A stretch of DNA of 64,000 bases from Polytrichum commune (Eukaryota; Streptophyta; Polytrichopsida; Polytrichales; Polytrichaceae), in NCBI GenBank assembly GCA_950295325.1, contig OX485804.1, forward strand, positions 60,666,533 to 60,730,532. The letters run 5' to 3'. Position numbers and translations under genes: made by a program. How positions within the stretch are numbered: position 1 is the first letter of the stretch; every line of letters starts with the position of its first letter. Shown piece by piece: positions 36,601 through 64,000 of this stretch. The notes beneath the pieces were generated by a model. The model was given only the letters and a program-made list of their open reading frames with translations, did no database searches and was not told where the DNA came from.

Positions 36601-37410
36601 TGGTTTGTTTGCCTTATATATATATATATATATATAGTTAAGATCTAGATTCTAAAAACATCATGAAATACACATTCCCTAGGAGTACTCCTCAAAAGAA
36701 AGAACTTGAAGAACAAAGTGGCCTTTAGTATTCAAGAGTGTACCCTAGGTGACCGGCCGATCCGGTCACCGAAGCTCTCTAACTGGCACATGTCCTTTTT
36801 GTGACTGTTAGGACCGCCCGTCCTTCGGCACCCGTTCTTGCACAACACACAATGTGGGACAACCGTCCATGAGGAGTACCGGTCCTTGGGTGGGAAGGAA
36901 GGGCACATGGCACCACCCTCTTTTCACCGGCCCACCCATTTATTTTGAAAAAAACGGACCGGGACTGACACATGGAACTTGGTCCTTATTGTATATGAGC
37001 ACACCTCTCATCCATCCAACACAAAAACTTGACCCCCCTAAAGGTTTGTTGCTGATTCATTTCAAATGATCTTGACTACACTAAATCCGGGTCTTTAAAG
37101 CTAATTTTGATGTCGATTCGACTTTAAAAAAAATCTCTGAACTATATACTATTTCAAGGTTTTTATATTGGATGAATGAGAGGTGTGCTCGTGTGGAATA
37201 ATTTTGTCTCTGTAGAGATGATTTCCTAAAACTTTTTATGCTACTTAGTGTTACTTACTACATGGAATTAACCAATGCTATACCTTTTTTGAGTATAGGG
37301 ATCATTTTTTGCAAACAAAGCACAAATTTTGGGTAGTATGGATGTCTAAAAGGAATGATGTACAAATTATTTGAGGGCAGTTATGTTGGATGAATAAGAG
37401 ATTAAGTCGT
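33650..37410. other. AT-rich gene-free stretch
   Basis: No gene is recognisable. A TATA-like ACTATATAAGGG lies near 34504. A direct repeat of about 85 bp with a 140-bp period lies at 35220-35450 (TTTGTGAGTTGTTGGATGTC twice). An imperfect 23-bp palindrome GGTGACCGG-CCGAT-CCGGTCACC is at about 36750. Decayed LTR sequence is the likely origin. Confidence 0.35.
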
Positions 37411-37412
37411 AT

Positions 37413-37440
37413 AACACTATATTCGTTAAATTGAGACTTT
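37413..37440 (+). repeat. left 28-bp terminal inverted repeat of the 11.1-kb element
   Basis: An exact reverse complement of 48486-48513, preceded by GTAT at 37409-37412. The same sequence forms the end of the second copy at 62065. Confidence 0.9.
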
Positions 37441-37534
37441 TTGGGCATTTTGAGACATTCATAGAAATAAGAACAAGGATAAATGGAACACATATTGGTG
37501 AAAGTTGTAAGATGCGAACACTTTGAAGCGGGTG

Positions 37535-38175
37535 CTTAGACCAAGAACCCCATTAATAACTCATATTTGTGATGGTATAGGGTGGGCAATCGAAACCTTA
37601 GACCAAATTGAAGGGGACATCTTAAAACATTCATATTAATGCACACAAAATATGAGAGCTTGTATGAATATGGTTTAGGTAGGGCAATCCAAACCATAGA
37701 TCTTATTGAAGGGAAAATCTTAAAACATTCATATTAATGCACACAAAATATGAGAGCTTGTATGAATATGGTTTAGGTAGGGCAATCCAAACCATAGATC
37801 TTATTGAAGGGAAAATCTTGAAACATTCATATTAATGCACACAAAATATGAGAGCTTGTATGAATATGGTTTAGGTAGGGCACTCCAAACCATAGATCTT
37901 ATTGAAGGGAAAATCTTAAAACATTCATATTAATGCACACAAAATATGAGAGCTTGTATGAATATGGTTTAGGTAGGGCAATCCAAACCATAGATCTTAT
38001 TGAAGGGAAAATCTTGAAACATTCATATTAATGCACACAAAATATGAGAGCTTGTAATGTATGGTTTAGGTAGGGCACTCCAAACCATAGATCTTATTGA
38101 AGGGGAAATCTTAAAACATTCATATTAATGCACACAATAAGGCACTCCAAACCTTAGACCATATTGAAGGCAAAA
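37535..38175 (+). repeat. subterminal tandem array, about 6 units of 97-98 bp
   Basis: Units begin with ACATTCATATTAATGCACAC at about 37627, 37726, 37823, 37920, 38018 and 38115 (last one partial) and are nearly identical. Each holds GGTAGGGCAMTCCAAACC, the subterminal motif that recurs in inverted form near the right end (about 48303 and 48350) and in the second copy (about 62219 and 62262). Subterminal repeats of this kind are usual transposase binding sites in large DNA transposons. Confidence 0.85.
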
Positions 38176-38313
38176 TCATGTGACACTTATATTATTGCAA
38201 AAAAAACAAAGTATGGCACGTAAAATGCATAGCATGCTAACACCACACATCCATTGGATAGTGCGACCCAAAATCATATTGCCTATGGTCCAAAACCCTA
38301 CGCCTACTATGGC

Positions 38314-38631
38314 CTATCTAGCCTCGGAGACTGCCTCTATTTCTTTTGCCTTTTTTTCTTTTGCCTCTTTTGTTTTTGCTTCTTTTTCTTTTGCTGCGGC
38401 TTCTTTTGCTCGCATTGCTTCAACATTCCTGAAAATCTCCGCCCCGCGACTATAGCCATTTTTGGGTTGACCGCCCTCTATAACACATTTTGGATTCCGT
38501 CGGCCACCCGAATTATACGACGAAGAATTCGAATACGATGAAGTGGACTGTCTTGCATTTTTGGTCATGGAGTAGAAACGCTCCAACTCGACGGACACAC
38601 TAGACCGCATAGGTTTACGGGTGGGAGCAAC
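38314..38631 (-). CDS. possible last exon: Ser-rich segment and Lys/Glu/Ala coiled coil
   Basis: An acceptor TTGCAG|GTTGCTCCC at 38632/38631 opens a frame of 105 residues that stops at 38314. It has a Ser/Tyr-rich stretch and then a highly charged helix (RAKEAAAKEKEAKTKEAKEK). It lies 88 bp beyond the stop of the phosphatase exon. It would join the phosphatase frame in phase 0 only if a donor existed near 38726, where AACAAG is followed by CT and not GT. So it may be a former last exon cut off by a lost donor site, or a separate piece. Low certainty. Confidence 0.35.
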   Translation of the reverse strand, partial: VAPTRKPMRSSVSVELERFYSMTKNARQSTSSYSNSSSYNSGGRRNPKCVIEGGQPKNGYSRGAEIFRNVEAMRAKEAAAKEKEAKTKEAKEKKAKEIEAVSEAR

Positions 38632-38719
38632 CTGCAACGCGTGAATGCAAGAACACACGTGTTAGTTTAGGGAGGAAGACCCAAACGTGTCACATACACA
38701 TACAAACACACGTAGTGTC

Positions 38720-39532
38720 TCAAATGAGCTTGTTAAATTTCGCGTGAGATAACAACTCTCTGTACAAATGGTCTCGTGGATCCAAGTATCTCTCGCCTAT
38801 CGGATTGTTCCTAACAAAATTGTTTACGGGCAGTCCGCTTCCGCAGAGCGCCTGGAGGTATTTACCAAGGTCTAACAAAAATCGGTCCCGGACCTTCTCG
38901 ACCGTCCAGGTAGGGCAAACTATGAGGTTGGCCGTCGGGTTCAACATGTTCTTTGCGGCGCTGTCGTCCACCATGAGCGTGTTCTCGCGGGTGGGACGGA
39001 CGTCGTAGGGGACGCCTATCAAGGACGGCCGCTGGTCCCAAAAAATGGGCTTCAAGACCTTGAGGTATTGGGGGGAAGCGGGGTTGTTTGGTTTTTTGAC
39101 GACTTTGCCGTCCGGTGTGTACAATATTCTACAGGCTTCCTGTGCTAGGACCATGCAGGGGGGCTCGATGCCCTTGAAGATGAACTCCACGACGGCATTG
39201 GTGTTCTCGGCCGTCATGGAGCTCCAAACGACCACCCACCATCGTTGTTGGGCCATCTGGAGGAAGGTCCGAAGCCACGGGCAGAGGTGAACTAGCTTGC
39301 TCTTTATGAACGTGGGCGGGCCGTCGTAATTCGCGTCCGCGGGCTTGCAAAAGGGCACCGTGGGGGTCCTCGGGCAATGAACGCATTGGACGAGGACCCC
39401 GTTCAGGTCTAACACCAGGAATCGTTTCTTCGGCCGCGGGGGCGGGGCGGGTAAAACCGGGGGTGCCGCCGCGCTGCCCTCTCCGCTCCTTGGAGAAGAG
39501 CGTCGGGGAGCCGCTACGCTATGCTCCGAGCC
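38720..39532 (-). CDS. exon D: FCP1/NIF-like HAD phosphatase domain
   Basis: After a Pro/Arg/Ser-rich lead (about 30 residues) the frame reads KKRFLVLDLNGVLV, which is HAD motif I with Asn in place of the second Asp. It is followed by VVWSSMTAENT (motif II, a Ser after VW as in FCP1-like domains) and LMVDDSAAKN (motif III/IV, with the paired Asp). This order and spacing (motif I to motif III about 145 residues) fit the FCP1 homology domain, which removes phosphate from Ser residues of protein tails. The DLNG variant occurs in a plant subfamily of FCP1-like proteins, to my knowledge, and could be catalytically weak. The stop is at 38720. A frame starting at 39415 would lack the motif I beta strand, so the acceptor at 39533 is preferred. 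Confidence 0.7.
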   Translation of the reverse strand, partial: GSEHSVAAPRRSSPRSGEGSAAAPPVLPAPPPRPKKRFLVLDLNGVLVQCVHCPRTPTVPFCKPADANYDGPPTFIKSKLVHLCPWLRTFLQMAQQRWWVVVWSSMTAENTNAVVEFIFKGIEPPCMVLAQEACRILYTPDGKVVKKPNNPASPQYLKVLKPIFWDQRPSLIGVPYDVRPTRENTLMVDDSAAKNMLNPTANLIVCPTWTVEKVRDRFLLDLGKYLQALCGSGLPVNNFVRNNPIGERYLDPRDHLYRELLSHAKFNKLI

Positions 39533-40001
39533 CTGCGGATACGATCGAGAGAAAATGGTGGGTGACTTATGTCATGCTATGTCCAAACGAAGCATTAAAG
39601 AAACGAGTGTTCTCGGTGCAAACACAAAACCATTTGATTCATTTTGGAGGGGGTGCAACAAGGGACACAAGAGAGGCAAGAGCATACAACATACATTCAA
39701 ACACAGGATACAAGTATATAGGAGTAAAAAATGGCGATTATATTATATACAATGCTCTATGTACATCTTGATTGGGGGGAGCCGCGTTGAACGATGCGTT
39801 CAAACTAGCCTACTTCTACATCTAGCAAAAATTGAAGAGACGGGCCGCCGTGATGAAGACTTCGTCGCAAGCCGGGGGGTATGTGGACGAACGAATGGTC
39901 GGGGGGAAGTGGCGAAGGGCGCGAGTGCCGGGGGGGCGACGTGTGCGTGAGTTTAGGGTAGGTAGGGGACACGACCAAGGCAAGAAGTCAAAGACCCAGG
40001 G

Positions 40002-40025
40002 AGTTTGGGTCGACCGACCCAAACT
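40002..40025. repeat. TTTGGGTCG palindrome, copy 1 (intron C-D)
   Basis: 24 bp, arms AGTTTGGGTCG and CGACCCAAACT around a 2-bp centre (AC). It lies 20 bp past the donor of exon C. Confidence 0.9.
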
Positions 40026-40045
40026 GAGTGGGGTCAGTGCATTAC

Positions 40046-41518
40046 CTCGCCTTGGTCGTGCCTCGACGACGTTGATGCCGGCATCGCGTGCGTTGCCCCA
40101 CCTCTGTCACCGCCGCCTCCGACGACGACGTCAGCCGCAACCTGCTCCTGCAAAGGCTGACTGTCAGGCCTTTGTCCCAACCCAACCTCCGCATGCGCAT
40201 CATGCATTGGTTCATCGACTGGGTTAGGAGTAGAGGTATCACTAGGCCCTTGCGGGCCTTCAACATCTAACATGGGCTCGTCCACCGGGGTCTGGTCGGG
40301 GACGGGGTTTGGGTCGGCCGACCCAAACCCTGCTGCTTGGCGAGCGTCGCTCTGGGACGCTGCAACGTGGGCACTATTTGGGTCGGACGACCCAAACATG
40401 TGGGGGTCGTCCCGTTGGTGTTGTGGGGGCGAGAGGATGGGAGGCCGGAGCGGCGGGGGTGCCAACGAGCTGGAAGCTCCGGGGACGCGCCAAAGGTTGG
40501 GGTCGTCCACCTGCTGGACGGGCGCGTAAGGGCGGGCGTGCGGCTGCAGCAAGTGCGCGAAGCTGAAGGACTGTTGCGGCGCTGGCCGCGGGCGGATATC
40601 CTGTGGAGGGAAGCCTGCGGGCAAGTGAGGGAATGAACTCGGGGGAGCCATCACCAATCCCTGCGCCAGCATGCCCTGGATCACTTGCGTGATCAAGTCC
40701 GCTTGGGACGGAGGTGGGGCCATCGCCCTTTGCCGCTCCTGCTCCAACAGAAGAGCCCTCAACTCCGCGACTTCGTTGCGGACCGAGGGCTCCTCGGCGG
40801 CGGCCTTTTGCAATCGGACGCGTTGCTCCTCGTCCCGGAGCATCTTCGCGTTGGCCTCCTCCACGGTGAGGACCTCGGGTTTCACCCTCACCATCCCGGC
40901 GAACGCTGTGGGGGAGGCAGGATCCGACCTCAGCCTCTTCGCGAGCTCCATGTCGTCCTCGTCCTCGGAGCTTATGGCGATCGTCTCCTCCACCGCATAA
41001 TCGCTGTATAATTTCTTCCCCTTCAGCATTCGCCGCTCCCTGAAGGTGGCCGTCGCGTCCCTCGAATACATGTCCTTCGCGTCGGCCACCGTGAGGACGG
41101 GCACTAGCTTGCTCTGCGGCGTGGCAGCTCGCATGGCCTTCTTCCGCTGAGGGGCCTCGGATTCTTGAGTGAATCCTGTTGCCCCTTCCTCGACCTCCCC
41201 CTCCACTTTCTCTGCTTCCTCCTCATCCTCCTCTTCCTCCCCCTCCTCCGCAACCTCGCCACCTGCTCCCATAGACGGATTGCCCGGATGCAACCCGATG
41301 AGCGGCTCTGGCAATTGAACGGGGGCGCGCATGGCGAATTCACCCGGGTTGATTCGCCTCGCCATATCCAAAGGATTCTCGCCCCCCTCGACGATCTCTT
41401 CGACGTAGGATCCGGGTATCCAGTCGAGGATGTCCATTCTCTTTGCCAGCGTCTTCTGGGTCCTGTAGAATTGAACATCGGTATCCTCCACATAGGAGTA
41501 GATGTTCAACCCAGACAT
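40046..41518 (-). CDS. exon C: acidic and Pro-rich linker region
   Basis: 491 codons, phase 0 at both ends. The start, MSGLNIYSYVEDTDVQFYRTQ, is moderately ordered. It is followed by a long acidic run (EEGEEEEDEEEAEKVEGEVEE), a Ser/Asp patch (ISSEDEDDMELAKRLRSD, resembling a nuclear acidic linker), a coiled-coil stretch (RLQKAAAEEPSVRNEVAELR) and a Pro/Gln/Asp-rich tail. Two palindromes, at 40305-40330 and 40377-40396, lie inside the tail and are read as FGSADPN and FGSSDPN. No enzyme domain is visible. Confidence 0.55.
40305..40330. repeat. TTTGGGTCG palindrome, copy 2 (in exon C)
   Basis: A 26-bp perfect palindrome with GGCC at its centre and GGG/CCC outer arms. It is read in frame as GFGSADPNP. 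Confidence 0.9.
40377..40396. repeat. TTTGGGTCG palindrome, copy 3 (in exon C)
   Basis: 20 bp, arms TTTGGGTCG and CGACCCAAA around GA. It is read in frame as FGSSDPN. Confidence 0.85.
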
Positions 41519-41598
41519 CTGCACAATCCAAATCAATAGTATTAGTATCACCAATGAAGAATAAGGAAAAATGACACCCAAAAAAACAATAATAGTTA

Positions 41599-41620
41599 GT
41601 TTGGGTCGCTCGACCCAAAC
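41599..41620. repeat. TTTGGGTCG palindrome, copy 4 (intron B-C)
   Basis: 22 bp, arms GTTTGGGTCG and CGACCCAAAC around CT, in the middle of the 135-bp intron. Confidence 0.9.
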
Positions 41621-41653
41621 CAGGCATATACATCCACGAGGTTAGTTTCTTAC

Positions 41654-42995
41654 CATTGCTGCAAAAACCGGTTTGGAGCCCCCGACGACGTTGAAGATGA
41701 AGTCCCCCCTCTTCGTGAGGGTCCTCATCATCCGCAGGTAAAAATCCATCCGCAGCTCATCCGCAGCTCATCCGCGGGGTAGTTGGCGTACTTCGCCTCG
41801 TCGTACAAGCTTCTGCTGGTGCCCAACCCTTCTGGGACTTGGAAAACCTTTCCATCCGGGCTATAGGATGGTTTGGCACCTTCAGCAGCTCAGCTTTGTA
41901 CACGAAGTACAAGCACAACACACAGACTATCTTCGTCTTCTTGTCTTTCAATGAGTTGTACGCCCCCTCCGCCGGTGCAGCAACGTAATGAGATTTTGAG
42001 ACGGCGTACTCTGGTTGCAATTTACGCACGATCTCGTACACCTGCTCCGCCCTCCTGTCCTCGACAATCCACAACCAGACGTCAACCTCCCTGAATTTGG
42101 GGCTGGCGTAGTCCACGAACTTGGTGAAGAATGGCTCGTAAAACGGGGTGCTCATTGTCCCCTCGAATGACGCTCCAGGAATGTTCCTGAAGTCTATCAT
42201 TCCGAAGGGGAAGCGGTCCCCGGCTGCAGTCCTGATCGCCTTCCTAGCATCAGAGCCCGGCCAACCTTGGATCTTTAGAGGCTCAAGGGAGACCAAGTTG
42301 AAGTGAGCTTCGCCCTCGAACCTGACGATCTTCTTCTCCTTTATAAAGTTGGAGAAGGCACGCGCGGAGTGTTCGGGAAGCGCCCGGTTCCTCCCACCCT
42401 TCACGAACTTGGACCTGAGGAAGTCGTCTCCCGCCTCCCTCATGAGTGCCGCCATGGACGCACTGGTGAACTTGTACTCGGCTTTGAATGCCCTCCAGTG
42501 CGCCTCGTCAACCTCTCCGTCCACGATGAGCTTCTTCTCGGGCACCAGCTTGTGCAGCTCTTGGACGATGGTCGTCTTCTTCTTCCTGTTCTCCGTCCAT
42601 TCCTTCAAGGTGTAGCATGAAGGGACGAACATCTTAGGCTTCGTGAAGACGATCTTCGGGTGAACCCAGCATCTCTTCGCCGTCGGCTGCATGTGGAGGA
42701 TGTGGGACGCCGCCTTTCCCACCTCTGTCTCCGAGAGACCTTGAAGAGCTCTGAAGAGCTCCCTCACCAGTGGCTTCATTTGCTTGAAGCGCGTAGTCTG
42801 GTTGTACAGAATGCCGGTGTCGGGATCGATGAGGTCTCCCGTCTCGTGTTTTTCGAAGACAGTCTTCCATTTTGTCCACACGGAGTCGGACGCTGTGATC
42901 AAGTAGATTTCTCCTCTTAGCTCGTTATATTTTTTTTGCTTGTGGCTAGCGTTGTCAATAGAGGAGAATTTATTGATCATCTGGTATTTGAAGTC
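41654..42995 (-). pseudogene. exon B: unrecognised domain, two frame lesions
   Basis: From DFKYQMINKF the frame is open to about 41860 and encodes a well-mixed globular sequence (for example FWKTVFEK-like WTKWKTVFEKHETGD, CWVHPKIVF, WLWIVEDRRAEQVYEIVRKLQPEY). It then shifts. Reading the next frame gives SPDGKVFQVPEGLGTSRS, a natural continuation. A second shift at an 11-bp duplication (CATCCGCAGCT twice on the plus strand, 41747-41768) must also be undone to reach MDFYLRMMRTL and the donor at 41653. No family is recognised; a methyltransferase-like or nuclease-like fold cannot be shown by eye. Confidence 0.55.
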
Positions 42996-43054
42996 CTGTA
43001 CATGAAGTCAAGAACATATGTTAGAGAACACATCATGAAAAAAAATGGAACAGC

Positions 43055-43363
43055 AGTTTGGGTCGATCGACCCAAACTTTAAATCTCATGAAGACTATAA
43101 GACAATCCAGCAGTTTGGATCGATCGACCCAAACTTTAAATGTCATGAAGACTATAAGATAATCCAGCAGTTTGGGTCGATCGACCCAAACTTTAAATCT
43201 CATGAAGACTATAAGACAATCCAAGAGTTTGGGTCGATCGACCCAAACTTTAAATCTGATGAAGACTATAAGACAATCCAAGAGTTTGGGTCGATCGACC
43301 CAAACTTTAAATCTGATGAAGACTATAAGACAATCCAAGAGTTTGGGTCGATCGACCCAAACT
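43055..43363. repeat. 57-bp tandem array of six TTTGGGTCG palindromes (intron A-B)
   Basis: Palindromes of 24 bp start at 43055, 43112, 43169, 43226, 43283 and 43340, an exact period of 57 bp. The centre is always CGATCG; only the second copy has an arm change (GGAT). Spacers are nearly constant (TTAAATCTCATGAAGACTAT and similar). The array fills most of the 375-bp intron 42996-43370, so the plus-strand repeat frame here is not a protein gene. Confidence 0.95.
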
Positions 43364-43370
43364 TACTCAC

Positions 43371-44696
43371 CTCCCATTTTGGGTTCTTGTCTTTTGCATT
43401 CTCCCTTTCCTTGGGAGGCCTGCCATAGAACTCCCACACATCCCTCGAGGCCATTATATTCCTAATCCAGGATGCCTGATACGCCTTTTTTTTATTCCCC
43501 ATGTTGAAAAACTTGGAGATGTCACTGAGGACGGTCTCGTTGTCCGACCAAACCACCAGTGCCTTCCATACCTTCAGCTTCTCCTTCTGGTTGTTGGGGT
43601 CGTCCCATTCAGTCATCAGCTGGATTTTTTTGGAGGCCTCGACACTGTGCTGGCCATCAATCAACCAGAAATCTCCTTTAGAAATCGCCGGCCACATATC
43701 AGCCGTAGGCATTCTTTTTAGCCCCTGGGGCATCACGACAATTGTCTGCCTGTCGTCCTTGAACTGCCCGCCCAAGATTTGAGCGACCATCCAGTCGACA
43801 TAGGCATCCTCCTTGGCTCGGACACACTTTTCAGGTGGCGCAAGGTGGCATTGTGCAATGTTTACCTCGAACTTGAAGTCCCTGCCCATGAAGAAGCAAT
43901 GGAGGCATTTCGTGTCAAAATTGTCGTTGATTTTCTGAATTTCCCCAGCATCAACCTCTTGGCCAGGCTTGGGCATCCGCAACTCTGGCGAAACTGGCTC
44001 GGTGGTCATGACTGATGACTCCCTTGCCCTTTTCGACGGGGTCGTCTGCCGGCTTCCTGAAGGAGTTGGCGTCTCGCTGTCAGCCGGAGTCGAGGTAGTG
44101 CTCAGTCTTCTAGAATCTGCCGGAACCGCCAGCGGAATCCTCACAGATTGGGGTCTGGAGGAACCTGCTCCTTCTTCTGTCTTGGCCTTCCGCCTGACAG
44201 GCTGTTGCGTTTTTGGTTTGCTTTGCAATGCTTTATTCAAAACCGTGATCGCTTGTTTCAGTTTTGTGAACCTGCTAGCGACCTTGGTGTTCGATACAGT
44301 GCCATCTATGAAGATGGTCTCCAGTTTTATTATCTCCGGGTCAACGCACGTCTCCTTGGCGTATAGGGGGTCGAAAGCCTCGGAGAATTGGTGCATGAAC
44401 ATATGCACGTTCTGCACTGCGGAGTTCTCTAGAATAACGTCAACGTGCTCCCCGAGAGCTTGGACGGAAGCAACCTCCCATCCCGTCAGCGTTGCCCAGG
44501 TGTGTTGCTCGTGGGTCCCCACTTTCACCATGAACAAGAGCTTGTACTGGGAGGCTTTCACAACCTGAACGGACCACGCAAGAACGATCCCGTCCTTTGG
44601 GACGTATGAGTCGTCCTGTGGAGTTTCGTACTCCTCCCAAAGGTGGTCTGGGGCGAGCATGAACCACCTCTCTCCAGGTCTCTTTTTAGTGGCCAT
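43371..44696 (-). CDS. exon A: ParB-like (DGQH) domain protein segment
   Basis: 442 codons from ATG 44696, directly after an acceptor, so a leader exon probably lies further upstream. Residues 1-170 are a mixed globular region (WFMLAPDHLWEEYETPQ, then WATLTGWEV), followed by a Ser/Thr/Arg-rich linker. The last 190 residues contain KGDFWLIDGQHSVEASKKIQ, with DGQH followed by a helix, as in ParB/Srx-like nuclease and DNA-binding folds, then WKALVVW and FFNMGNKKKA. In phages and bacterial plasmids this fold binds or cuts DNA. Assignment rests on this motif and its context only. Reading on into the intron gives a false tail. Confidence 0.55.
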
Positions 44697-44919
44697 CTGT
44701 AAGTCCAGAAACAAAATTGTTAGTTTAGGTCGATCGACCCAAAGTTTTTCAACTTGGATTGAACATCAGTGCAAATTGAAGGGTGCTCTACTGGCCATCA
44801 TGAATAGGTTTGGGTCGACCGACCCAAACCCAAGCCTCGAATAGCCTAATCGTATAAGAATTATTGGTAGAGTTCGGGTCTTAAGAATATGAATATATTG
44901 AATATTGTGTAGTGGCAGA
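44697..44919. promoter_or_regulatory. divergent upstream region with two TTTGGGTCG palindromes
   Basis: This 223-bp interval lies between the transposase start at 44920 (+) and the first recognised exon of the large gene (-). It holds an imperfect palindrome at 44724-44743 and a 24-bp one at 44807-44830. An acceptor at 44697 implies a leader exon of the minus-strand gene within or beyond this interval. A shared control region is an inference. Confidence 0.5.
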
Positions 44920-47900
44920 ATGAATGGGTTTAGTGAAAGAGGGGATTGGTCATCTGAAGATATGGCCACTTGGCCATCTGCATCTGAGGATGAGATAGAC
45001 ATTGTCGGGGAGGATACTTTGGCTGACAGTGCAGATGAAGATCATTTGGATTTACCTTCGCCTTCCGTACCGCAATGTCCCATTGCTGAATGTACGGGAC
45101 TCTCAAGGGCTTCATGGGTGAATTTGGAGGTGGTACTTCTTAATGACAGTGGAGTTGTTGTGGCGGAGGGGATTTGTCGCAACACCCATCCACAAGATTG
45201 CATTGATGAAAACCCGCTTGGCACCGAGGACGTTGGGGTTGTCATATTGGAGTCGCTCGTTCATTCCGAGGTGGATCCCACTCATAGATTCTCCCTCCGG
45301 AGGTGGCCATTGAGGAATGTCACGATTGATGGTGTTTCCTTGTGTGAACATGAGCAACGACACTTGCAAATCCAAAAAGAGCAGCAATCAAACATGCGGC
45401 CACGCAAGGGTCAAAGAAAGTACGATACATTGGCACGTCCTGCTCCGTCTGCAACTGATTGTAAACGTCAAAGGTTGCTCGGGGAGGAGTCCATTAGAGA
45501 AGTTGCCACAAAGGATTGTTGTGTGCATCGTTGTTGCCAATTGTTTCCCCGGGATAAATTGTTGGCCATCCGCGAAGAAATGTGGCTTGGTGATTTCCGT
45601 CTAAGATCCACCAAAAAACTTGATGTGCATAGGGCGATACATGTGAATGGGGCGGGTCGCAAGGTCATCACCATTGAGAGCATAGACGTGTGTTGCAAGG
45701 CATGGTACACCATTCATGGTGTGTCGAAAGCGGACTTTTATAGACAAGCTGCTTATGCCAAGGAAGGCTGCCGGTCCCGTCACCATGGGAACGTGGGTTT
45801 AAAGAAACCTAGGGAAGCAACAAGGCAAGCAACGGCCACTCTAGCAACCATAATTGTCCCACTTGCCGATGCAATGCCGCACAAAACACGCACACTCACA
45901 ACTGGTGAAAAGGTTGTGGAGAAAGTTCTTCCCACAGGCACAAAATGGAAAGACATATTGTTGGATGTAAATGCAGTTGGGGAGAAGATTGGGTTGGAGC
46001 CAATTTCATCGTCAAAATTGAGTGCAATCAAGAAAGCAAACTTCAGCGAATACATTACAAAAAGACGAGGGGACAAATTTGCAAGGTGCTCTAATTGCGA
46101 GAAGTTGAAGCGCCTTCGGGATGCACATACGATGGGTACCGAGTCGTTTGCGGTGCATCAATTGAACTATTTCAAGCACGTAAACATGCAAGAGGCACAC
46201 CGTAATGATTACTACACAAATAGAGCATTGTCCATCTCCAGGCCCTTGGAAGTTCTTACGGTCATCCATGACAAAATGGACCATGCCAAGACAGCCTCCC
46301 CATGTTTTGCAAAACGAATCAAGGCCACAGATGGGTTTTTTAAGTTGCCTGTATCGGTTACAGGTGATCTTCGAAACAATGTTGACATACCCTAAATATT
46401 GTTGTATTTTATTATGTGATGTACTTGAGAACATTGATTCACTCAAAACGATTTAGACATACATAGATACTAATCACTTTGGGTTGGCATTGTAGGAATG
46501 ATTGCACATGGATACGGTGATGTCAAGTTTGCCCATTATGCTCTTGATTTGTATCCAGCAGATTCAAACCACACGATAGGGTCATTTGCAAGGCTTTTGC
46601 GTGATTTAGAGAAACCGCCAGCCTATTCTTCAGGATTGTTATTTGAAAATACGGGTTCAACACCTTTATATGAAGCAGTGATGGATGGAAAAGATGTATG
46701 CTTGCATTCGTTGCCCGAACCACCCAGTGAACCCGTGATAGCCAAGAAGTTGCCCCCCACTTTGCGTGTCCAATTGGACAATTGTGCCAAGGACAATAAA
46801 AGTAGATATGTATTTGCATATTGGTCGTTGTTGGTTGCGAAAGGCATTTTCAAGGAGGTTTTTGTGTCCTTCCTATTGGTAGGCCACACGCACGACGATA
46901 TTGATGCATCTTTTGGACGGTGGAGCATGAAGTTGCGGGAGGAGGATTTTCCTATAATCCCGTTATTGATGAAGTCATACATGGATTTGAAGAACGTTCC
47001 CGTCATCCCCCATATGATTGAGGAGGTGCCAGACTTCAAGGCATTTATAGAACCTTATATTCGAAGTGGAGCTCATCGATTGATTGGCCATACGAAGGCA
47101 CAACAATTCCGGTTCTACATGCGTGACGATGGTGTCCCGGCCATGCAATACAAGTTGTTGTGCACGACACAAGACTGGAGCCCGCCAGAGGGTCTCCTTG
47201 TGTGGTGCGTGGATGCAGATGGGAAGACCATGTTACCGGATGGAGAGCCTAGGCCTTGCAAGCCAATAGCCATGAAGAATTTGGAGGATATTTTGAAAGG
47301 TATATCAGGCTTCATTCAATATTGGGAGAGTTTGAAGATAGCGGATGTTGGCGGATCATGTTGGCATCATTATGGGAGTTGGATACATTATTGGACACGT
47401 GTTCGTGCGGCCTTGGCAGACCTCCACCAAGATAGCCCTCATACTTTGAGGCACGGATTTTGGCCACAAACTCGTATCGATGTACAAGCTTCGGAGGCTA
47501 GTCTTTTGAGTAATGGAGAGGTTCGTGAGGAGTTTGATATGGACGACCATTACGTTGGGCCTGCTAGTCAACGTCCCCCACCATCTTTCCGCATTGCAGT
47601 GGATTGTCATGAAGGTTATATGCTCATTTTGCGTCCTGGAGATGAGACATATGCAAAGCCAGTGTGGGTGGCAAGAGCTTTGTCCAATCCAAATTTTGTA
47701 TCTTCCAGCCCTCATTTTCGACAAATACAAGTAGAGTACTACCGACCGACAGCACGGAATGAAGATGTTGTTCGGCATTATACAGGCTGGGATACAAACC
47801 CTAACTTTCGGTGGAAGGTGGATTCTGAGCACGGTCCATCTTGGGTAGATACAGATTCCATATTCATAGCATGGAAACCACGGAAAAATCATAGTGGATC

Positions 47901-47982
47901 AGTGTCCATCCCTCAAAAGTACATAACTTTTGCAAAAGACAACCTTGCTCGGATCGCAGAAGAAGCAACCCACGTTGAATGA
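44920..47982 (+). CDS. DUF7869-type putative transposase, two exons
   Basis: Exons 44920-46363 and 46496-47982 join in phase 1 (donor ACAG|GTGATC, acceptor TTGTAG|GAATG) and give 976 residues. The first ATG is 44920. The N-terminal third is acidic and poorly ordered. The middle has Cys-rich pieces (CCVHRCCQLF; CSNCEKLK) that may bind zinc. Then come three acidic motifs in order: DKMDHAK near residue 450, QLDNCAKDNK near 580 and VGHTHDDIDASFGRW near 620. These are hallmarks of the DUF7869 family and are compatible with an RNase-H-fold DDE/D transposase, although I cannot prove catalysis. Its place between perfect terminal repeats makes it the best candidate for the enzyme that moves the element. 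No lesion was seen. Other copies: 62596-64000 (nonsense) and 12940-14877 (old). Confidence 0.75.
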
Positions 47983-48485
47983 GAAGTTGGTAGGATTGTG
48001 TTAGCATGATTATAGTGTAAACAGTAATTCGACGAATATATATTACTCATATGTGTGCTCCTCAAACTTGGGGCAAAGTTTGGGTAGAACTTGCGAATGC
48101 TATATTGTTTGGGGTTGGATGAATATCCATTTACTATATTTCAATACAATTGTGAAGTTCATTTTTTTATTAAGTTTGGGACTAAATTTTCCATTGAAGA
48201 AATATGCATTTATTGCATGCACTTTGTATGTTGCAATGTCTATATTTTATTGACCATGCTAATAATAGAAATCATTTTATATGTTTTTTGGGTGAAACTA
48301 GTTTGGAGTGCTCTACCCAAAGTGTTTTTGTTGATGAGGTTGGTGTTGAGTGCTCTACCATATGTGCTTATGTCCACACATAATAGATTTGGGATATTAG
48401 AACATATAATATATTTGAGATTGTTCGCAATATAGTTTCGGAACACGGAATGTTGTTTGATCCATATATTAATTTGAGACTAGAG

Positions 48486-48513
48486 AAAGTCTCAATTTAA
48501 CGAATATAGTGTT
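48486..48513 (-). repeat. right 28-bp terminal inverted repeat of the 11.1-kb element
   Basis: A perfect inverted match to 37413-37440, followed by the target duplication GTAT at 48514-48517. Two inverted subterminal motifs (GGAGTGCTCTACC-like) lie 150-210 bp inside. Confidence 0.9.
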
Positions 48514-48620
48514 GTATACAACAAACCCCTCTTGCCACCCCAAGTGGTACAAAGAGTGAAGAAAGCTTCATTCTAAAGCTTGCATGTTGGCTTGCCTTGA
48601 CTGCAACAACATGGGTTTTA

Positions 48621-62064: not shown

Positions 62065-64000
62065 AACACTATATTCGTTAAATTGAGACTTTCTCTAGTC
62101 TCAAATTAATATATGGATCAAACAACATTCCGTGTTCCGAAACTATATTGCGAACAATCTCAAATATATTATATGTTCTAATATCCCAAATCTATTATGT
62201 GTGGACATAAGCACATATGGTAGAGCACTCAACACCAACTTCATCAATAAAAACACTTTGGGTAGAGCACTCCAAACTAGTTTCACCCAAAAAACATATA
62301 AAATGATTTCTATTATTAGCATGGTCAATAAAATATAGACATTGCAACATACAAAGTACATGCAATAAATGCATTTTTCTTCAATGGAAAATTTAGTCCC
62401 AAACTTAATAAAAAAATGAACTTCACAATTGTATTGAAATATAGTAAATGGATATTCATCCAACCCCAAACAATATAGCATTCGCAAGTTCTACCCAAAC
62501 TTTGCCCCAAGTTTGAGGAGCACACATATGAGTAATATATATTCGTCGAATTACTGTTTACACTATAATCATGCTAACACAATCCTACCAACTTCTCATT
62601 CAACGTGGGTTGCTTCTTCTGCGATCCGAGCAAGGTTGTCTTTTGCAAAAGTTATGTACTTTTGAGGGATGGACACTGATCCACTATGATTTTTCCGTGG
62701 TTTCCATGCTATGAATATGGAATCTGTATCTACCCAAGATGGACCGTGCTCAGAATCCACCTTCCACCGAAAGTTAGGGTTTGTATCCCAGCCTGTATAA
62801 TGCCGAACAACATCTTCATTCCGTGCTGTCGGTCGGTAGTACTCTACTTGTATTTGTCGAAAATGAGGGCTGGAAGTTACAAAATTTGGTTTGGACAAAG
62901 CTCTTGCCACCCACACTGGCTTTGCATATGTCTCATCTCCAGGACGCAAAATGAGCATATAACCTTCATGACAATCCACTGCAATGCGGAAAGATGGTGG
63001 CGGACGACTACTAGCAGGCCCCACGTAATGGTCGTCCACATCAAACTCCTCACGAACCTCTCCATTACTCAAAAGACTAGCCTCCGAAGTTTGTACATTG
63101 ACACGTGTTTGTGGCCAAAACCCATGCCTTAAAGTAAGGGGTGTATCTTGATGAAGGTTTGCCAAAGCGCCACGAACACGTGTCCAATATTGTATCCAAC
63201 TTCCGTAACGAAGCCAACACGATCCACCAACATCCGCTACCCTCAAACTCTCCCAATATTGTATGAAGCCTGATATGCCTTTACAAATGTCCTCCAAATT
63301 CTTCATGGGTATTGGTTTGCAAGGCTTAGGCTCTCCGTCAGGCAACATCGTCCTTCCCTCCCCATCAACACGCCATACAAGGAGACCCTCCGGCGGGCTC
63401 CAGTCTTGTGACGTGCACAACAACTTATATTGCATGGCGGGGACACCATCGTCACGCACGTAGAACCGAAATTGTTGTGCCTTCGTATGTCCGATCAATC
63501 GGTGAGCTCCGCTTCGAATATACGGTTCTATAAATGCCTTGAAGTCTGGAACCTCCTTGATCATATGGGGGATGATGGGAATGTTCTCCAAATCCATGTA
63601 CGACTTCATCAACAATGGGATTGTCGGAAAATCCTCCTCGCGCAACTTCATGCTCCACCGCCCAAAAGATGCATCGATATCGTCGTGCGTGTGGCCTACC
63701 AATAGAAAGGACACAAAAACCTCCTTGAAAATGCCTTTCACAACCAACAATGACCAATATGCAAAAACATATCTACTTTTATTGTCCTTCGCACAATTGT
63801 CCAATTAGACACGCAGAGTTGGGGGCAAATTCTTGGCAATCACATCTTCACTTGGTGGCTCCGGCAATGAATGCACGCATACATCTCTTCCATCCAAGAC
63901 CGCTTCATATAGAGGTGTTGATCCCGAGTTTTCAAATAACAATCTTGATGAATAGGACGGCGGTTTCTCCAAATCACGTAAAAGCTTTGCAAATGACCCT
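62065..64000 (-). mobile_element. second copy of the 11.1-kb element type, inverted, cut by window end
   Basis: It starts with the same terminal repeat (AACACTATATTCG at 62065, preceded by AAAT), then the same subterminal motifs (about 62219 and 62262) and the 3' two-thirds of the DUF7869 gene on the minus strand. Similarity to 46500-48513 is very high over its whole visible length. The rest lies beyond 64000. Confidence 0.85.
62596..64000 (-). pseudogene. DUF7869-type transposase, second copy, nonsense mutation (5' end off window)
   Basis: It is nearly identical to the C-terminal part of the protein at 44920-47982, with the same last residues (EEATHVE). At 63807-63805 the codon for Gln in RVQLDNC is TAA (CAA to TAA), directly before the second acidic motif. 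An open frame can only restart after it, so the visible frame (402 codons from 63804) is a C-terminal remnant. The sequence upstream of the stop (PTLRV and GKDV.. continuing to 64000) is still readable, so the lesion is recent. Confidence 0.75.

Follow-up and report, generated by a model that had tools for sequence, protein, structure and literature searches.

A moss DNA transposon with a DUF7869 putative transposase, a conserved second gene and arrays of a 22-bp palindrome

In a 64,000-nucleotide stretch of the genome of the moss Polytrichum commune (NCBI GenBank assembly GCA_950295325.1, contig OX485804.1, positions 60,666,533 to 60,730,532, forward strand; hereafter the window, G000:C2:60666533-60730532), an element at positions 37413–48513 carries two divergent genes, one encoding a DUF7869 protein (gene 1) and the other a much larger product (gene 2). 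The locus raises the question of whether gene 2 is a passenger, as an initial annotation of the sequence had proposed, or a working part of a transposon, and of what the repeats inside the element may serve. The reading favored here, with a probability of roughly 0.55, is that of a cut-and-paste transposon with a DUF7869 transposase of the three-aspartate (DDD) type, in which an internal palindrome is bound by an element-encoded protein, most likely that of gene 2, to counter host silencing.

The element is bounded by perfect 28-bp terminal inverted repeats (TIRs; left, plus strand, 37413–37440; right, minus strand, 48486–48513), with GTAT duplicated on either side (37409–37412 and 48514–48517), which confirmed the ends as first annotated. 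Across the searched genome (407.8 Mb, 64 contigs), the 28-bp end was found 800 times at ≤1 mismatch (393 and 407 on the two strands) against 0 for a reversed control, so that chance is excluded for the ends. In nine further copies that were fetched, the outer 4 bp, compared by eye, were identical on both sides in every case (ATAA, TATA, TTTT, TTTG, AAGT, AATG, GAAG, TCAT and ACAT). Eight end pairs were also taken from end loci, four of them being copies already fetched, and the outer 4 bp agreed in seven; the disagreeing pair is 36.9 kb long and off by one base. Wrong end pairings, used as a control, agreed in 0/56. Overall, a 4-bp target-site duplication (TSD) was present in 13 of 14 two-ended copies, the window copy included, as expected of the genuine DNA transposon that had been proposed.

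End positions were listed for the first 100 of the 800, covering the whole of contig C1 and the beginning of C2. Among 35 neighboring plus/minus pairs on C1, one spanned 4.8 kb, 21 spanned 14.4–18.5 kb, 12 spanned 22.7–44.1 kb and one spanned 146 kb, with a median of 17,444 bp for the 34 pairs below 50 kb. These spans rule out 11 kb, given earlier as the element length, as the usual size, and the window copy (11.1 kb) is short for its family. A third end identical to the other two, at 62065–62092, is a right end in reverse orientation and marks the second copy that the initial annotation had noticed (62065–64000, minus strand), which is oriented opposite to the first and comprises the right end and part of transposase exon 2 before leaving the window; by eye, this exon seems to hold an in-frame stop. 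The family has probably been active recently, and its nearest named protein relatives are from Ceratodon and Physcomitrium.

Gene 1 lies on the plus strand, with exon 1 at 44920–46363, a predicted GT-AG intron at 46364–46495 (where the relative P0095 likewise departs from the reading frame) and exon 2, which holds the DUF7869 domain, at 46496–47982. The family assignment was upheld by a match to PF25273 (E=3.6e-41). The predicted structure shows an RNase H topology with invariant aspartates, namely the pair D451/D454 in exon 1 (46270/46279) and D576 (46777) and D616/D618 (46897/46903) in exon 2, and because of this topology and invariance the gene is taken to encode a putative DDD transposase with an RNase H fold, in agreement with the suggestion made from the sequence at the outset. 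The assignment of the catalytic acids is model-based, by topology, invariance and structural neighbors. The protein would act on the 28-bp ends and leave the 4-bp duplications. The name DUF7869 was absent from the one limited literature collection searched, and the element would link a domain of unknown function with transposition. At the C-terminus (P0008 residues 820–925) an SH3-like barrel was predicted, whose weak structural neighbors include BAH and PWWP chromatin readers; on the basis of the model, this barrel could read chromatin at target sites.

Gene 2 lies on the minus strand and, in the exon model inferred here, encodes a product of ~1,650 residues. Exon 1 (442 amino acids (aa), 43371–44696) includes a weak PH/PTB-like N-terminal part and, at residues 270–404, a domain of predicted ParB/sulfiredoxin fold; exon 2 (41654–42995) has its frame broken near the exon end in the window copy, and its residues 1–390 were compared in other copies; exon 3 (40046–41518) is Pro-rich and acidic; exon 4 (38720–39532), with borders inferred from GT-AG, carries a NIF/FCP1-like domain. 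All four main exons were matched, at least in pieces, in the nine fetched copies, both genes occurred together in 9/9, as the initial annotation would have them do, and the stop codon of gene 2 was kept in 7/7 other copies viewed by eye. For exons 1 and 2, the ratio of nonsynonymous to synonymous substitution rates (dN/dS) between fetched copies and the window copy was 0.04–0.13 where estimable. Gene 2 is under purifying selection, and because of its low dN/dS and its linkage with the transposase it is a conserved second gene of the element and no passive cargo.

The earlier description of gene 2 as ParB-like and FCP1-like held in its second part, with a NIF domain match (PF03031, E=1.1e-12, 48.4 bits, above the cut-off of 21.8); at the place of the catalytic acid motif the sequence, judged by eye, reads DLNGVL. 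The ParB part found no sequence match in Pfam, NCBIfam or PDB sequences, nor among the Pfam hits of the 42 members of the gene-2 alignment A2, and a single VIA-align structural comparison of the predicted model returned a ParB/sulfiredoxin fold, so that gene 2 is putatively ParB-like by fold alone. Its P motif reads GQHS, with Ser at the Arg position of GxxR in 37/38 sequences and Asn in 1/38; this Arg is required for nucleotide binding according to passages of a published survey (PMC12704722). As regards a viral origin, comparison of A2 with viral contigs found no relative.

The most unusual feature of the element, absent from the initial annotation, is its palindrome arrays. The 22-bp palindrome GTTTGGGTCGNNCGACCCAAAC was found 9,231 times in the genome against 0 for its control. 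At ≤2 mismatches, 12 are present in the window copy (one of them, GTTTGGGTCGACCGACCCAAAC, at 40003–40024) and 21–43 in each of the nine others. They form arrays whose units differ in length, located between the genes, within introns and within exon 3. Specifically, six at 57-bp spacing form an array in intron 1 of gene 2 (43055–43363), two lie in the short divergent intergenic region (44697–44919) and others fall within the coding sequence of exon 3 at about 40308 and 40377. Compared with the window copy, fetched copies have 3.5–6.1 kb extra between the genes, holding palindrome arrays; in the central region of two copies no open frame exceeded 211 aa, the longer ones being arrays read through, and the extra sequence is apparently non-coding. 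No site matching the palindrome at ≥14/20 was present in 50.9 kb of window sequence beyond the element.

The arms of the palindrome are conserved beyond their surroundings. The spacer between exact arms was 2 bases in every counted site, and 48 sites with unlike flanks gave ~0.1 bit per flank position and 1.4–2.0 bits in the arms. As these sites had been preselected at ≤3 mismatches, the comparison within sites is the fairer control: neighboring palindromes with 31% flank identity (n=42) were 88% identical in the arms and 50% in the center, and those with 50% flank identity (n=88) were 93% and 47% identical, respectively. Sites with 0, 1, 2 and 3 mismatches numbered 223, 60, 14 and 5, and those with 4, 5 and 6 numbered 28, 23 and 21. 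Each arm contains a CG dinucleotide, which would permit methylation-sensitive binding. The subterminal repeats recognized earlier at both ends were also recovered. On the left, about five 98-bp tandem units (37571–38204) contain five sites matching the palindrome at 15–16 of 20 positions (0 in 200 shuffles), and on the right one related site (48301–48322) matches at 15 of 20; with these 4–5 mismatches in the window copy, the subterminal repeats are, by sequence, degraded versions of the palindrome.

Two linked, selected genes together with an exact repeated site that has degraded forms near the ends argue for an element-specific DNA-binding protein. In the proposed mechanism, the two genes would be transcribed divergently from a common central region, the DUF7869 transposase would work on the 28-bp ends, and the palindromes of the central arrays, introns and subterminal regions would be sites for an element-encoded protein. 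This binder would most likely be the product of gene 2 which, placed on many sites along the element, would sustain expression against silencing as VANC does in VANDAL transposons. Two points weigh against this reading. First, the evidence that the two genes are linked comes from the window copy, from the nine copies that were fetched and from where 13 gene-2 matches lie on C1. Second, three palindrome clusters, accounting for 23 of the first 100 listed palindromes, stand apart from any listed end and any listed match to gene 2. The clusters lie at C1 438279, 462875–478028 and 2154319–2159887 and may be relatives with other ends or palindromes within another repeat.

If the favored reading is right, an anti-silencing system was built independently of VANDAL/VANC in a different transposase superfamily, around a protein with a fold familiar chiefly from chromosome segregation in bacteria, and its binding site is long and sharply defined, hence directly testable. 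A bolder version, rather unlikely as it stands, has a ParB-fold protein fused to a NIF/FCP1-type phosphatase domain loading on 20–40 palindromes, coating the element and acting on RNA polymerase II or chromatin. Such loading would amount to sequence-specific self-activation or self-marking of a transposon, and we know of no transposon family with a ParB/parS-like mechanism of this kind. Among the papers listed from a limited literature collection, no ParB-fold protein of a plant transposon was described in a title or the opening of an abstract.

The alternative that survives best, possible if doubtful, is that the palindromes are bound by the transposase and have multiplied inside the element to serve in regulation or titration, with gene 2 having an unrelated role. 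Subterminal repeats serve as transposase binding sites in many plant transposons, degraded palindromes occur subterminally at both ends, where the transposase would bind, and two invariant cysteines (C366 and C369) precede its catalytic part. However, the exact palindromes are internal and the degraded ones terminal, and the exact form accompanies gene 2, in its introns and exon 3. In 30/84 gene-2 relatives (not necessarily from other species) the open frame continues through a palindrome, with each of the three frames represented, against 0/104 transposase relatives; the contrast is weak, since these transposase relatives are mostly continuous frames lacking introns into which translation could run. 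It is improbable that the palindromes work as RNA or DNA hairpins, in introns and the central region, that act in splicing, small-RNA attraction or replication and not as protein sites: they are near-perfect dyads, many are intronic and the variable center would form a loop, but pairing alone predicts paired arm changes, yet 223 of the 302 sites have exactly the same arm sequence, and palindromes also lie upstream of both genes. Least likely is that gene 2 is hitchhiking captured host cargo and the arrays are functionless satellite-like repeats since, although NIF/FCP1-like domains are common in hosts and slippage produces tandem arrays, selection on exons 1 and 2 and the retention of all exons with the transposase disfavor a host gene, and arms that stay conserved while center and flanks drift, in 48 flank-distinct contexts and in arrays of different unit length, speak against a satellite.

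The superfamily is most likely of the Sola type, on comparison by published description. The undescribed superfamily proposed initially is doubtful because the 4-bp TSD, DDD transposase, moss occurrence and sizes, with some elements >15 kb, fit what passages of two papers give for Sola (PMC10741241, PMC9033089). Sola TIRs are there put at 11–1124 bp, a range that includes the present 28 bp, and Sola1 is listed for Physcomitrella; the agreement on the DDD transposase is model-based on our side. Unlike the element, Sola appears in these published passages without a second large ParB-type/NIF gene or internal palindrome arrays. Text searches of PMC7466625, PMC6431247 and PMC10045372 found no mention of Sola.

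Among the cases met, VANDAL/VANC is the best worked-out plant transposon system that counters silencing by its own sequence-specific protein. VANDALs, known from Arabidopsis, are Mutator-like and share with the element a second, non-transposase gene and a short motif repeated in tandem within non-coding regions; in their case the second protein binds the motif and removes DNA methylation. By description, they differ in that VANC, the worked-out anti-silencing precedent, has DUF1985/DUF287 domains and 8–9-bp motifs in the passages available (PMC5735166), whereas the element combines a predicted ParB-fold/NIF protein with a 22-bp palindrome; a Pfam scan of the window proteins and A2 members gave gene 2 no DUF1985/DUF287 match. 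The TSD of Mutator is 7–12 bp in part of a review (PMC10741241), against 4 bp here. With ParB/parS the element shares a putative, element-encoded domain of ParB-CTPase fold and a repeated site of dyad symmetry. It differs in that gene 2 is without the GxxR arginine and without a ParA or helix-turn-helix family match, in its eukaryotic host and, presumably, in its palindrome, which we take to be unlike parS. Orphan ParB-fold proteins are often linked with mobile elements, and sulfiredoxin is the commonest form of the fold in eukaryotes, as stated in passages of PMC12704722. A transposase accompanied by a second gene, with 4-bp, AT-rich TSDs, is also described for dictyostelid Sola2 elements in the part of PMC3627910 consulted. 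There the second gene is a Fanzor1 passenger and the regions vary between families, whereas the second gene of the element is the same in all fetched copies. One paper (PMC12730594) reportedly concerns TET/JBP genes in fungal transposons.

Other observations concern the element, individual copies and the flanks. Downstream (3′) of gene 2, the open-frame list contains a Lys/Ala/Glu-rich frame of 115 aa (38314–38661, minus strand). The copy at C1:72550382 has 14.4 kb separating its left end from gene 2 (L055:1421-9919, L056:1-5916); this sequence, which includes several long open frames and does not resemble the window element, is probably another mobile element nested there. A right-end repeat with slight divergence lies internally at L057:5980 and is followed by ACAT, the four bases that also form the outer duplication of the copy in which it lies. 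The C1 ends L029/L030 (146 kb apart) and L031/L034 (80.6 kb apart) share outer 4 bp of CTAC and ATAG, respectively, and within the latter pair lies another, spanning 22.7 kb and flanked on either side by ATTC. Nested insertion is suspected here. At L015/L016 (C1:3961117 and 3975699), a right end and a left end point the same way and have flanks that are reverse complements of each other (GCTT/AAGC), as expected after inversion of one end; a gene-2 match lies between them. Immediately to the left of the element in the window (36986–37201), an inverted repeat of 43 bp (84%), whose arms are 130 bp apart, is possibly a small inverted-repeat transposon.
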